Assembly: GCF_029626025.1 (NCBI RefSeq)
Contig: NZ_JARUBF010000001.1
Location: 1,984,001-2,048,000, forward strand
DNA from: Solwaraspora sp. WMMD406
GTDB taxonomy: Bacteria; Actinomycetota; Actinomycetes; Mycobacteriales; Micromonosporaceae
Direction: 5' to 3'
Length of the DNA stretch: 64,000 bases
Positions 58,880-62,603 of the stretch are shown piece by piece; within the stretch, counting starts at the first letter, position 1; each line of letters opens with the position of its first letter. A program made the position numbers and the translations under genes. The notes under the pieces were generated by a model, which was not told where the DNA came from, did not search any database, and was given only the letters and a program-made list of their open reading frames with translations.

Positions 58880-58937
58880 CGCTTCCGTACCTCTCCGCCG
58901 CTGATCGAGACCGCCGCCGTCCCGCCGACCCTACCGA

Positions 58938-59001
58938 CCGGGACCCCTACCAGCCCGGACCCCTACCAGCCCGGACCCCTACCAGCCCGGACCCCTACCA
59001 G
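58938..59001. repeat. 16-bp tandem repeat, four copies
   Basis: Units CCCGGACCCCTACCAG begin at 58954, 58970 and 58986, with a one-base variant at 58938. They fill the spacer between the divergent DinB gene and the interrupted nucleotidyltransferase gene, close to its promoter. Confidence 0.9.
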
Positions 59002-59040
59002 CCCGGCCGGCCCGGCCGCGCCGTAGGTTATCAACGACGG

Positions 59041-59212
59041 ATGGCCCGCTACCTGCTCTTTCCCGGTCGGCATCACCTGCTTACCCGGTTCCAGGCCGAC
59101 TATCTGCGTCAGCTGGCCGCGACCACCGCGACCGATACCGACGGTGACGGTGACGGGTGCACGGTGGTCTGGGCGGTCACGTCGGCCAACCACAGCAACA
59201 CCCGACGGAACC
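59041..59212 (+). pseudogene. 5' fragment of an interrupted nucleotidyltransferase-methyltransferase gene
   Basis: ATG 59041 opens a frame of 57 residues (MARYLLFPGRHHLLTRFQAD ... WAVTSANHSNTRRN) that runs into the IS607-family element. The fragment is the beginning of an NMNAT/cytidylyltransferase-like nucleotidyltransferase: a glycine-rich FPGRHH loop, a core strand (CTVVWAVTSA) and a TRRN stretch that normally continues NP(F/V). The sequence P-V-P-F-H-R-R-E on the other side of the element (61234 onward) supplies that continuation exactly. The rest of the gene is at 61234-62603. Without the element, one 513-residue protein would result. On its own this fragment is non-functional. Confidence 0.85.
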
Positions 59213-59420
59213 GTTACCTCTCAGTGGGCTTTAGTGAGCGCACGGTTGGTAGTCCTGCCTTGCGGTAGGACGGTCCCGGTCTGATCCGCTTGAGCGGTGC
59301 CGGGTTCACGCTTCACGGCCACCTGCCCGCGTGTGCGGGTCTTCTGGTCGGCTCCACGTGCTGCCACCGGGCCACTCCCGGCGGTTGCCGCCGCAAGGGC
59401 GGCCAGGTTCACAGCGGCGT
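59213..59420 (-). ncRNA. predicted omega (guide) RNA region of the IS607 element
   Basis: TnpB systems produce a guide RNA from the 3' end of tnpB through the element end, with the guide copied from the flanking DNA. Here tnpB stops at 59221, only 8 bp before the element end at 59213, so the RNA scaffold must overlap the tnpB coding end. The guide would be read from 59212 leftwards into the interrupted gene. The start of the RNA is a guess; family knowledge, not a direct sequence signal. Confidence 0.35.
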
Positions 59421-60594
59421 TGCGGTCACGGTCGATGACTAGACCGCACGCCTCACACCGGTATTCACGCTCGGACAGGGCCAGCTTGGTTTTCACCGTG
59501 CCACAGCCCGAGCAGGTCTTGCTGGACGGGTACCAGCGGTCGGCCACCACAAGCCGGCCGCCGTTCCATCCGGTCTTGTACGCCAACTGGCGGCGGATCT
59601 CCGAGAATCCGGCGTCGGCGACGTGCCGAGCCAACCGCCGGTTGCGCAGCATGCCGGTGACGTTGAGGTCTTCCACCACAACGGTGCCGTACGTCGTGGC
59701 GAGTCGGGTGGTGAGCTTGTGCAGCCCGTCACGGCGCAGATGAGCGACCCGGGCGTGAGCGCGACCGAGCCGGCTCGCGGCCCGTTCCCACCGCTTCGAG
59801 GGACGTCGTCCGGTACGCCGGTCCGGGCCCTGCTTGCGCGACAGCGTCCGGCCGAGCGCATGCATCCGTTGCCGCGCGGCCACGAGGTGGCGCGGGTTGT
59901 CGACCAACTCGCCGGTGGACAGCACCGCGAGATGCCGGATACCGACGTCCACACCAACCACCGAGCCGGGTCGGGCCGGGCTGCGTTCGGCGCGTTCGAC
60001 CTCGACGGTGAACGACACATGCCACCGTCCGCCATCACGACGCACTGTCGCGGACATGATCCGGGCGGTGCCGGCTTCAATACGGCGGGCGAGCTTGCGG
60101 GCGGACTCGTGCAACTTCAACCGGCCCAGCCGGGGTAGCACCACGTGCATCTTGTCCGGTTCGACCCGGATCGCCCCGGTGGTGAACCGCACGCTGGGCG
60201 TGGTACGGCGGCGGGACTTGAACCGGGGGAAACCCGACGGCCGACCGGCGCGTTTCCCGCTGCGGGAGTCAGTCCAGTTCTTCAACCCGCGAGCGAGCGC
60301 GTCGAGGCCGGTGTTGAACGCCTCCTTCGACACCTCACCCCACCACGGCGCGACGTCGGGCTTCGCGGCGTTCCAGGCCTTCCGAAGACCGGCCAGCGAC
60401 CAGGACAGTGATGGCGTTAGCAACTCGTCTGGTACGCCGTAGGAGCGTTCGGCGATGCGCTGGTCCATGACCGCCTTGACCTTCGCGAGCGCCCAGTTGT
60501 GGGCGAGCCGGGCGGCCCCAGCGTGTGCAAGGACGTCGCGTTCCTGGCGCGAGGTGAGGTCGAGGGCGAACCGGTACGCCTGGATCGTTTTCAC
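59221..60594 (-). CDS. tnpB: TnpB, RNA-guided nuclease of the IS607 element
   Basis: A 457-residue TnpB. An N-terminal helical/WED-like part (VKTIQAYRFALDLTSRQE) is followed by a RuvC core: D216 in VVGVDVGIRHLAV, E308 in TVVVEDLNVTGM, and the final Asp (D388/D390) in VIDRDRNAAVN. A zinc finger sits between them (C361, C364, C380, C383). All catalytic and zinc residues are present, so the nuclease should be active. GTG 60594 overlaps the tnpA stop (GTGA). The C-terminal ~45 residues are basic and poorly conserved, and their DNA doubles as the likely guide RNA scaffold. Confidence 0.92.
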   Translation of the reverse strand: MKTIQAYRFALDLTSRQERDVLAHAGAARLAHNWALAKVKAVMDQRIAERSYGVPDELLTPSLSWSLAGLRKAWNAAKPDVAPWWGEVSKEAFNTGLDALARGLKNWTDSRSGKRAGRPSGFPRFKSRRRTTPSVRFTTGAIRVEPDKMHVVLPRLGRLKLHESARKLARRIEAGTARIMSATVRRDGGRWHVSFTVEVERAERSPARPGSVVGVDVGIRHLAVLSTGELVDNPRHLVAARQRMHALGRTLSRKQGPDRRTGRRPSKRWERAASRLGRAHARVAHLRRDGLHKLTTRLATTYGTVVVEDLNVTGMLRNRRLARHVADAGFSEIRRQLAYKTGWNGGRLVVADRWYPSSKTCSGCGTVKTKLALSEREYRCEACGLVIDRDRNAAVNLAALAAATAGSGPVAARGADQKTRTRGQVAVKREPGTAQADQTGTVLPQGRTTNRALTKAH

Positions 60595-61172
60595 GCCGGG
60601 CCACTCTCGGTGGCGGCTTCGACCGCCCGGCGGGCACGGTTCGCGGCAGCGCGACGCCCGTACAGGCGGGCGCACAACGACGTCAGGATCTCCGTCACGT
60701 CGCGGACCAGATCATCGTCGACCTCAGCCGGGTCGACCACCAGCAGTCGGCGGCCCTGCGCGGCCAGCGCCGCCTCAACGTACTCGGCCCCGAACCGGGC
60801 GAACCGGTCCCGATGCTCAACCACGATCGTTGCCACCTTCGGGTCGCGCAGCAGCGCGAGGAACTTCTTGCGGTGCCCGTTCAACGCGGATCCAACCTCG
60901 GTCACCACCCGGTCGACGCCGAGTTTCTGCCCGGTGGCCCACACGGTGACCCGGGCGACTTGCCGGTCCAGGTCGGGTTTCTGATCGGCTGAGGACACCC
61001 AGGCGTACACCACGGTCTGCCCCGTCTCGGCCGACGTGCCGGTGACCGGCTCACCGACCATGATCAGTCGACCGATCCGGTAGGTGGGAACAGGCAGCGT
61101 CCCGGCTGCGTACTGTCGCCGAGCGGTGATGTACGCGATGCCGGTCGACGCTGCCCACTCCTTGAGGTTCAC
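60591..61172 (-). CDS. tnpA: IS607-family serine recombinase (TnpA)
   Basis: A 193-residue serine transposase. A MerR-like helix-turn-helix occupies residues ~1-40 (MNLKEWAASTGIAYITARRQYAAGTLPVP), followed by the resolvase-type catalytic domain with S60 in YAWVSSADQK and D122-R123...R126 in VEHRDRFARFG. The position normally Arg in YARVS is Trp (W58), a change at a residue usually important for catalysis. A C-terminal helical, basic end is seen in IS607 proteins. The gene overlaps tnpB by 4 bp. GTG 61172 is the start. Confidence 0.9.
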   Translation of the reverse strand: MNLKEWAASTGIAYITARRQYAAGTLPVPTYRIGRLIMVGEPVTGTSAETGQTVVYAWVSSADQKPDLDRQVARVTVWATGQKLGVDRVVTEVGSALNGHRKKFLALLRDPKVATIVVEHRDRFARFGAEYVEAALAAQGRRLLVVDPAEVDDDLVRDVTEILTSLCARLYGRRAAANRARRAVEAATESGPA

Positions 61173-61205
61173 GCGAGCATCATAGCAGCTTCAAGAGCGC
61201 CATAG

Positions 61206-62603
61206 ATGCCCGGAGCGCCAACAGTCAGCTACCCCGTGCCCTTTCACCGCCGGGAGGCGGCGATCGAGCGGTTCAGCGTACTGACCGGGCTGCGGTCGCT
61301 GGTGGTGCCGGTGTTCGACACCCGGGCGACCACCCGGTTCGCCGAGGTCACCCTGAAAAACGTGGCGGCGGCGACCGGGCTGGAACTGACCGCGACCAAC
61401 ACCGTGCTGGCCTGCTCGACCCCGGAGGTGGCGGCGATGTACGCCGAGCTCGGCTTCCCGGTGGCCGGGGTGGAAGCCGAGGTGTCGCCGTCACCGGACC
61501 GGCCGTGGGACGTACTGCTGCGGCTGGCCGCCGGCGACGAGACGTGGCGGGATCTGGCGCACCCGGCCACCGTCGACATCTTCCACAGATACGGACTGGA
61601 CCGGCTGGTCCAGGCGGTCGTCAACGACCCGGTGGTGGGCGACGAGGGCGGGCTGACCGCCACCCGGGACTACCGTAGCTACGCCGAGGCGTTCGCCGAG
61701 GCGGCGCACCGCAAGTGGACGGCGGTCCGGGAGCACGTCCGACCCGGGCGGATCGTCGACATCGGGTGCGGGGCCGGCGCGGTGCTGGAGCTCGCCGACC
61801 GGGAACCGGCCCTGCGGGAAAGCGACCTGATCGGGGTCGAGGTGGCCCGGCACCTGTTCGAGGAATGCGTACACAAGAAGGCGCAGGGCTTCTTCACCAA
61901 CCCGAACGTGTTCTTCTACCACCGCAACGTGCTCGGCGGTGCGGTGTTCCCGCCCCGCTCGGTCGACACGACCCTGACGTTCGCGCTGACCCACGAGATC
62001 TGGTCGTACGGCGCCCAGCTGGACTCGGTACGTCGGTTCGTCCAGGCGATCTACGACCACACCGTACCGGGCGGGGTGTGGATCAACAGCGACGTCTGCG
62101 GACCGGACGGCCGGGACCGTCCGGTGCTGCTCGACCTCTGCCGTACCGACGGGGCGAATCCGGCGGCTCCCCGTACCGACCTGGCCGCGCTACCGGCGGC
62201 GCGGGTGGCGCAGCACGTTCGTGTCCTGTCCACCCGGGCCCGGCTCGACCAGTTCGCGGTCGACTTCGCCTTCCCGACGCCCTATCAGCCGGTGCCCGAC
62301 CGGCCCGGCGTGGTCGAGACGACGCTCGGGGCGGCGATGGACTTCCTGACCCGCAAGGACTATCCGGACAACTGGCTGTCGGAGACCCGTGAGCAGTTCT
62401 GCGGGCTGGAGTACGCCGACTGGAAGGCGCTGCTGGCCGACGTCGGCTTCGAGGTGGAGGCGGCGAGCGGGCCGTGGCGTAACGACTGGATCGTCACCAA
62501 CCGGCTCGACCCGGTGGCCACACTCCGCACCCTGGACGGGGCGGCGATGGAGTGGCCGGTCACTCACGTGTTGCTGGTGGCCCGCCGACCGGTGAACAGC
62601 TGA
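61206..62603 (+). CDS. class I SAM methyltransferase (3' part of an IS-interrupted nucleotidyltransferase-methyltransferase)
   Basis: A 465-residue frame starting with ATG 61206 inside the right end of the IS607 element; the first nine or ten residues (MPGAPTVSY) are element-derived. Residues ~10-95 are the remaining part of a nucleotidyltransferase domain (PVPFHRREAAIERFSVLTG, NVAAATGLELTATNTVLAC). Residues ~170-330 form a SAM-dependent methyltransferase: RIVDIGCGAGAVLELAD (motif I, about 182-199), LIGVEVARHLFEE, TFALTHEIWSYG and VPGGVWINSDVCG. The C-terminus is intact. The methyltransferase could still be translated from the element-supplied ATG. Target molecule unknown; the domain pairing suggests modification of a nucleotide-linked substrate. 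Confidence 0.8.
   Translation: MPGAPTVSYPVPFHRREAAIERFSVLTGLRSLVVPVFDTRATTRFAEVTLKNVAAATGLELTATNTVLACSTPEVAAMYAELGFPVAGVEAEVSPSPDRPWDVLLRLAAGDETWRDLAHPATVDIFHRYGLDRLVQAVVNDPVVGDEGGLTATRDYRSYAEAFAEAAHRKWTAVREHVRPGRIVDIGCGAGAVLELADREPALRESDLIGVEVARHLFEECVHKKAQGFFTNPNVFFYHRNVLGGAVFPPRSVDTTLTFALTHEIWSYGAQLDSVRRFVQAIYDHTVPGGVWINSDVCGPDGRDRPVLLDLCRTDGANPAAPRTDLAALPAARVAQHVRVLSTRARLDQFAVDFAFPTPYQPVPDRPGVVETTLGAAMDFLTRKDYPDNWLSETREQFCGLEYADWKALLADVGFEVEAASGPWRNDWIVTNRLDPVATLRTLDGAAMEWPVTHVLLVARRPVNS

Follow-up and report, generated by a model that had tools for sequence, protein, structure and literature searches.

The question raised by this locus is whether two reading frames that lie on either side of a mobile element were once a single gene, and how the element came to stand between them. 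The window, a stretch of 64,000 nucleotides within contig C1 of the 7.16 Mb genome of Solwaraspora sp. WMMD406, was first annotated from its letters and open reading frames. The initial annotation proposed that a recent, nearly undecayed insertion of the IS607 family cleanly splits a nucleotidyltransferase-methyltransferase gene, and that its removal would restore 513 residues without a scar, so that the target, the crossover dinucleotide and both element ends could be read directly. The features that bear on these proposals are collected in Table 1.

Table 1. Features of the interrupted gene and the inserted element (window coordinates).
Feature	Position	Strand	Remarks
Interrupted gene, 5′ part	59041..59212	+	57 codons up to 59211, plus base 59212
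Predicted 20-nt guide segment, starting after GG	59191..59210	-	inferred from anatomy, if TnpB works like that of ISXfa1
Crossover dinucleotide CC (GG on element strand), right-end side	59211..59212	.	GG in 44/45 copies
IS607-family element, 2019 bp	59213..61231	-	end points common to four copies at other sites: G003 (two), G005, G006
tnpB, RNA-guided endonuclease, 457 aa	59221..60594	-	PF01385, PF07282, PF12323, NF038280
Conserved structured right end, presumed reRNA/omega-RNA scaffold	59224..59383	-	six helices, inside tnpB frame; 42 copies
Rfam RF03015 Transposase-2 RNA	59248..59314	-	70.8 bits vs gathering 42.7
tnpA, serine transposase, 193 aa, GTG start	60591..61172	-	PF00239, NF033518
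Element left end with in-frame ATG for the 3′ fragment	61206..61231	+	gives 465-aa ORF 61206-62603
CCCC (GGGG on element strand)	61232..61235	.	retained core CC and neighbouring target bases; predicted TAM side (GGG)
Interrupted gene, 3′ part	61234..62603	+	remaining nucleotidyltransferase domain and methyltransferase domain

The frame that opens at 59041 (MARYLL...HSNTRRN) can be read to 59211, where it enters the element and comes to a stop at 59268. Beyond the element the same frame resumes as PVPFHRRE when one CC is kept, the CCC codon occupying 61233-61235. The left flank ends in ...CGGAACC and the right flank begins with CCCCGTG; after deletion of 59213-61233 the joined flanks read AACCCCGTG, and the resulting 1542 bases encode 513 residues with no internal stop, the length and scarless join first annotated. 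Because there are C-runs on both sides, deletion of 59211-61231, 59212-61232 or 59213-61233 gives the identical product. The element proper is therefore 59213-61231 with CC on each side; one of the two is the crossover dinucleotide that is retained. No target duplication longer than this exchange dinucleotide is present (CC/CC at the two sides of the element, GG on its own strand).

The uninterrupted orthologues implied by this arrangement were found. Protein searches with the 3′ part gave matches in 15 of 61 genomes and then in 119 of 354 genomes of the family, the strain itself included in both counts and the second taking in some short or weak matches. The gene is thus patchily distributed in the family, and more distant relatives at 51–57% identity occur in one Klenkia record and two Chloroflexi records. 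The junction was read in 75 orthologous loci: 14 from the set of 61 genomes, 22 from the set of 354 and 39 from named records, which include genera such as Micromonospora, Actinoplanes and Catellatospora of the Micromonosporaceae. Every one of the 75 is continuous across the junction, 73 by a junction pattern and two (L135 and L141) by direct reading; the loci are partly non-independent, because the two collections have some genomes in common, and fragments in G199, G271, G274 and G354 are among the listed places outside the junction check. Alignments of the joined protein to intact orthologues span almost all of it, with identities of 54–82% in the matches listed. All five congeneric loci share common neighbours (DinB-like, methyltransferase and GNAT genes), which were not found within the flanks of 1.5–3 kb or less around the other 70. 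In the protein search no match to the interrupted gene was detected in the congener G005, where the element lies at another site, nor did the family search of 354 genomes reveal a second match in the strain's own genome.

Naming the interrupted gene from sequence alone was dropped. Sequence profiles returned weak methyltransferase matches and a sub-threshold TBD match for the first 57 residues, and a profile search of solved structures gave weak matches, among them 1f9a at E 0.078; a fold search was therefore used. By the predicted fold of an orthologue, the product joins an NMN-adenylyltransferase-like domain and a class I methyltransferase in one chain, in agreement with the name first given to the gene. 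The two predicted domains resemble archaeal NMN adenylyltransferase (1hyb, 1ej2) and class I methyltransferases, and nicotinamide N-methyltransferases occur among the fold matches. We take the segment GRHHLLT in the 5′ part to be HIGH-like. The split lies within the nucleotidyltransferase fold. We know of no activity for a fused protein of this kind; the insertion marks a two-domain gene for a predicted NAD-type enzyme, and intact congeners offer a comparison for its loss in this strain. Just upstream of the gene start, at 58929-59006, there is a tandem array of 4.9 copies of the 16-bp unit CCCTACCAGCCCGGAC.

The element carries two genes on the strand opposite to that of its host gene, the stop codon of tnpA and the start codon of tnpB overlapping in GTGA. 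The tnpA product scored 194.6 bits against NF033518 (IS607 transposase; cut-off 110) and the tnpB product 582.7 bits against NF038280 (IS607 TnpB; cut-off 350), both cut-offs being curated, which places them in the IS607 family. TnpB has CxxC pairs at 361 and 380 together with the PF01385 and PF07282 matches, as expected of a RuvC-type nuclease with a zinc ribbon; D216, E308 and D390, placed from motifs rather than from a structure alignment, are presumably the RuvC triad. Only 8 bases separate the tnpB stop codon from the element end. None of the 14 inverted pairs reported (minimum length 12) links the two ends of the element as terminal inverted repeats. The element is a complete IS607-family insertion sequence and, to judge from its sequence, is probably active.

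Four full-length, near-identical copies were found at other sites in three congeners, two of them in G003 and one each in G005 and G006. On realignment with the window copy they show 98.4–99.4% identity and begin and end at exactly the same bases; their right ends abut GG and their left ends a run of at least GGG, so that the end points read from the target recur in each of them. Between this strain and five congeners, G003 and G006 included, the 3′ part of the host gene has a DNA identity of 81.8–83.1%. With the element at 98.4–99.4% and its host gene at 82–83% between species, the element has spread between lineages recently. The description of the insertion as recent and nearly undecayed is supported.

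A second copy in the strain's own genome differs from the window copy at 1 of 1910 bases and is missing the outermost 109 bp on the left side, for which the surrounding 6.5 kb holds only matches of up to 13 bases. This truncated copy adjoins a 60-bp stretch (L098:1425-1484; G000:C1 ~6170424-6170483), bounded by TCGAGGTGAGG and its inverse, that may have been left as a scar by another element or by a deletion. When one genome per species was compared, 260 of the 354 family genomes matched the element somewhere at E ≤0.001, many merely near 1e-4. The phage collection contained no match to the element. Among plasmids, 75 records matched, 3 at 80–90% and 72 at 60–80% identity, and just one carries 80% or more of the element at a single place; no close plasmid copy was thus found in the collection searched.

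Several other explanations of the locus can be weighed against these data. The two parts might be independent genes that flank the element, the joined protein being a coincidence, and the 3′ part is indeed open for 465 aa from an ATG of its own at 61206. That ATG belongs to the left end of the element, however, and all 75 orthologous loci examined hold both parts in one continuous frame; in none were they met as separate genes. The continuous orthologues led us to reject this reading, the probability of which is negligible. The orthologue alignment, the 75 continuous loci and the four copies with common end points place the junction far beyond chance. The same 465 open codons would also suit a co-opted insertion, in which the ATG of the element, and perhaps a promoter, expresses a stand-alone methyltransferase. 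The split within the nucleotidyltransferase fold speaks against this, as does the youth of the element, which follows from its near-identity to the copies in other species and the single difference from the second own copy; we regard such co-option as very improbable.

It might be argued, too, that the element is by now a remnant, dead or immobile, whose TnpB is no longer a nuclease, as the left-truncated close copy in the same genome could suggest. Yet tnpA and tnpB are full length and have the expected motifs, and both ends match those of copies at other sites, none of the four near-identical copies ending differently; a remnant is thus unlikely, though less so than co-option. The element may still be mobile within its own strain, although the left truncation of the second close copy there weighs against this.

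We therefore hold it to be nearly certain that an intact IS607 element, acting through TnpA, split the NMNAT-like/methyltransferase gene scarlessly, and that TnpB with the right-end RNA can be expected to favour its retention. In this mechanism the element would enter as double-stranded DNA through the serine transposase. A circular double-stranded intermediate, which we infer, would recombine its GG with a GG in the GGGG run (CCCC on the + strand) at codon 58. The right-end RNA would run out into the flank, GGTTCCGTC..., and TnpB guided by it (TTCCGTC..., beside a GGG TAM) would be expected to cut the empty allele; such cutting would favour retention of the element.

The choice of target was followed in 45 copies: 39 near-full-length places in the family, the second own copy, L003, L004, L005, L007 and the window. 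These share ancestry, yet their guide starts are all different (45/45). The right flank is GG in every copy except L087, which has AG, and the next base is G in only 1 of 45, whereas in flanking DNA G follows GG in 22.8% of cases (P ~1e-4). At the left flank GGG or a longer run was scored in 38 of 42 copies by a script and in 39 of 42 by eye, L002, L005 and L007 being omitted with left ends missing or unaligned. The script was imperfect: in L081 and L083, at least, it scored a run that does not lie at the boundary, and it overlooked L071 and L094. By eye the exceptions were L083, L087 and L091, with L094 uncertain. All five copies with exact boundaries, the window counted, show GGG or a longer run on the left. 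The flank counts place the exchange at the last GG of the run, and copies of the element thus insert at the 3′ edge of G-runs. This is in line with the GG exchange and (G)GG target preference described for the IS607 family (PMC6188088), with GG as the overlap dinucleotide (PMC4058570) and with the GGG TAM reported for the IS607-family ISXfa1 TnpB (PMC10711439). As read from the flanks, GGG would be the TAM here also. Intact alleles in five congeners differ from the predicted guide of the window copy by 2–3 mismatches in 20, beside GGG, and might be cut by TnpB.

The right end of the element has features of a structured RNA. RF03015 was matched in all 11 further loci given to Rfam, and when a six-helix structure is scored on 42 distinct right ends, 96.3% of its cells are paired. 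Five of the helices came from the alignment's own fold and one was added by hand, while the outer helices (columns 56-60/105-109 and 64-70/93-98) and the pair 75/91 were left out, so that the paired percentage leans to the favourable side. The hand-added helix is the weakest, at 89.4% paired, with a C-C mismatch in the window copy. As to covariation, double changes occur at 13 pairs, where shuffles gave 5.3 and slid controls 1–9; two of the left-out pairs showed them likewise. Across the 45 copies of one bacterial family the Transposase-2 RNA coincides with IS607 right ends wherever examined (the window and the 11 loci), and this RNA family can therefore be tested as a guide scaffold of TnpB.

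The tnpB stop lies exactly 8 bases before the element end in 32 of the 45 copies; no motif was recovered in L069, and in the other 12 the stop falls at various places between 47 ahead of the end and 73 past it. With the stop 8 bases from the end, the reading frame encloses the presumed guide-RNA scaffold. Among 30 distinct sequences that stop 8 before the end, the entropy by codon position is protein-like in the preceding 146 codons (0.32/0.22/0.78) and flat in the 53-codon tail (0.25/0.29/0.35), and several copies have shifted or altered tnpB tails, the frame being open ahead of the RuvC-III motif. The flat entropy and the altered tails make the tail look constrained mainly as RNA. One might go further and suppose that in this actinobacterial IS607 clade the guide-RNA gene and the nuclease gene have fully merged, with the tnpB frame crossing the entire Transposase-2 scaffold and every guide RNA having to be cut from the tnpB message, so that translation and guide supply compete as a built-in self-limiting switch and the tail is kept by RNA rather than protein selection; we offer this tentatively, and doubt it more than we believe it. 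No literature was found on RF03015, nor on IS607 with Micromonospora; the term Transposase-2 was absent among the matches listed, and complete overlap could still have been published.

The locus is a very clean yet ordinary case of IS607 insertion and leaves the picture of IS607 transposition unchanged. It offers a natural example in which the target, the crossover dinucleotide, both ends and the empty-site frame are legible at base level. To the initial annotation, which holds to the base, are added the G-run target edge, the Transposase-2 RNA with covarying helices and the scaffold inside the tnpB frame. IS607, IS1535 and ISC1926, as described in PMC6188088, likewise combine a serine transposase and TnpB without terminal inverted repeats or target duplication and share the GG exchange and (G)GG preference; exchange at the 3′ edge of the run was seen in the copies compared here. 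ISXfa1 has an IS607 TnpB and a GGG TAM, to which the GGG left flank corresponds, and PMC10711439 assigns its flanking nucleotide to the RNA scaffold; the right-end RNA here, known from sequence, matches Transposase-2. The IS607 TnpBs with RAGATH-18 reRNAs also have a structured right-end RNA, but according to PMC11061315 their TAMs are AGGAG or GAGGG, and in ISFba1 the RNA starts 13 nt downstream of tnpB, whereas the RF03015 match lies inside tnpB. Overlap of reRNA and tnpB is already known, and its completeness is the only unusual detail here: in ISDra2, according to PMC11844463, the reRNA overlaps the coding sequence and the protein tail is dispensable, as appears to be so here, although the transposase family differs and the present frame extends to 8 bases from the element end.
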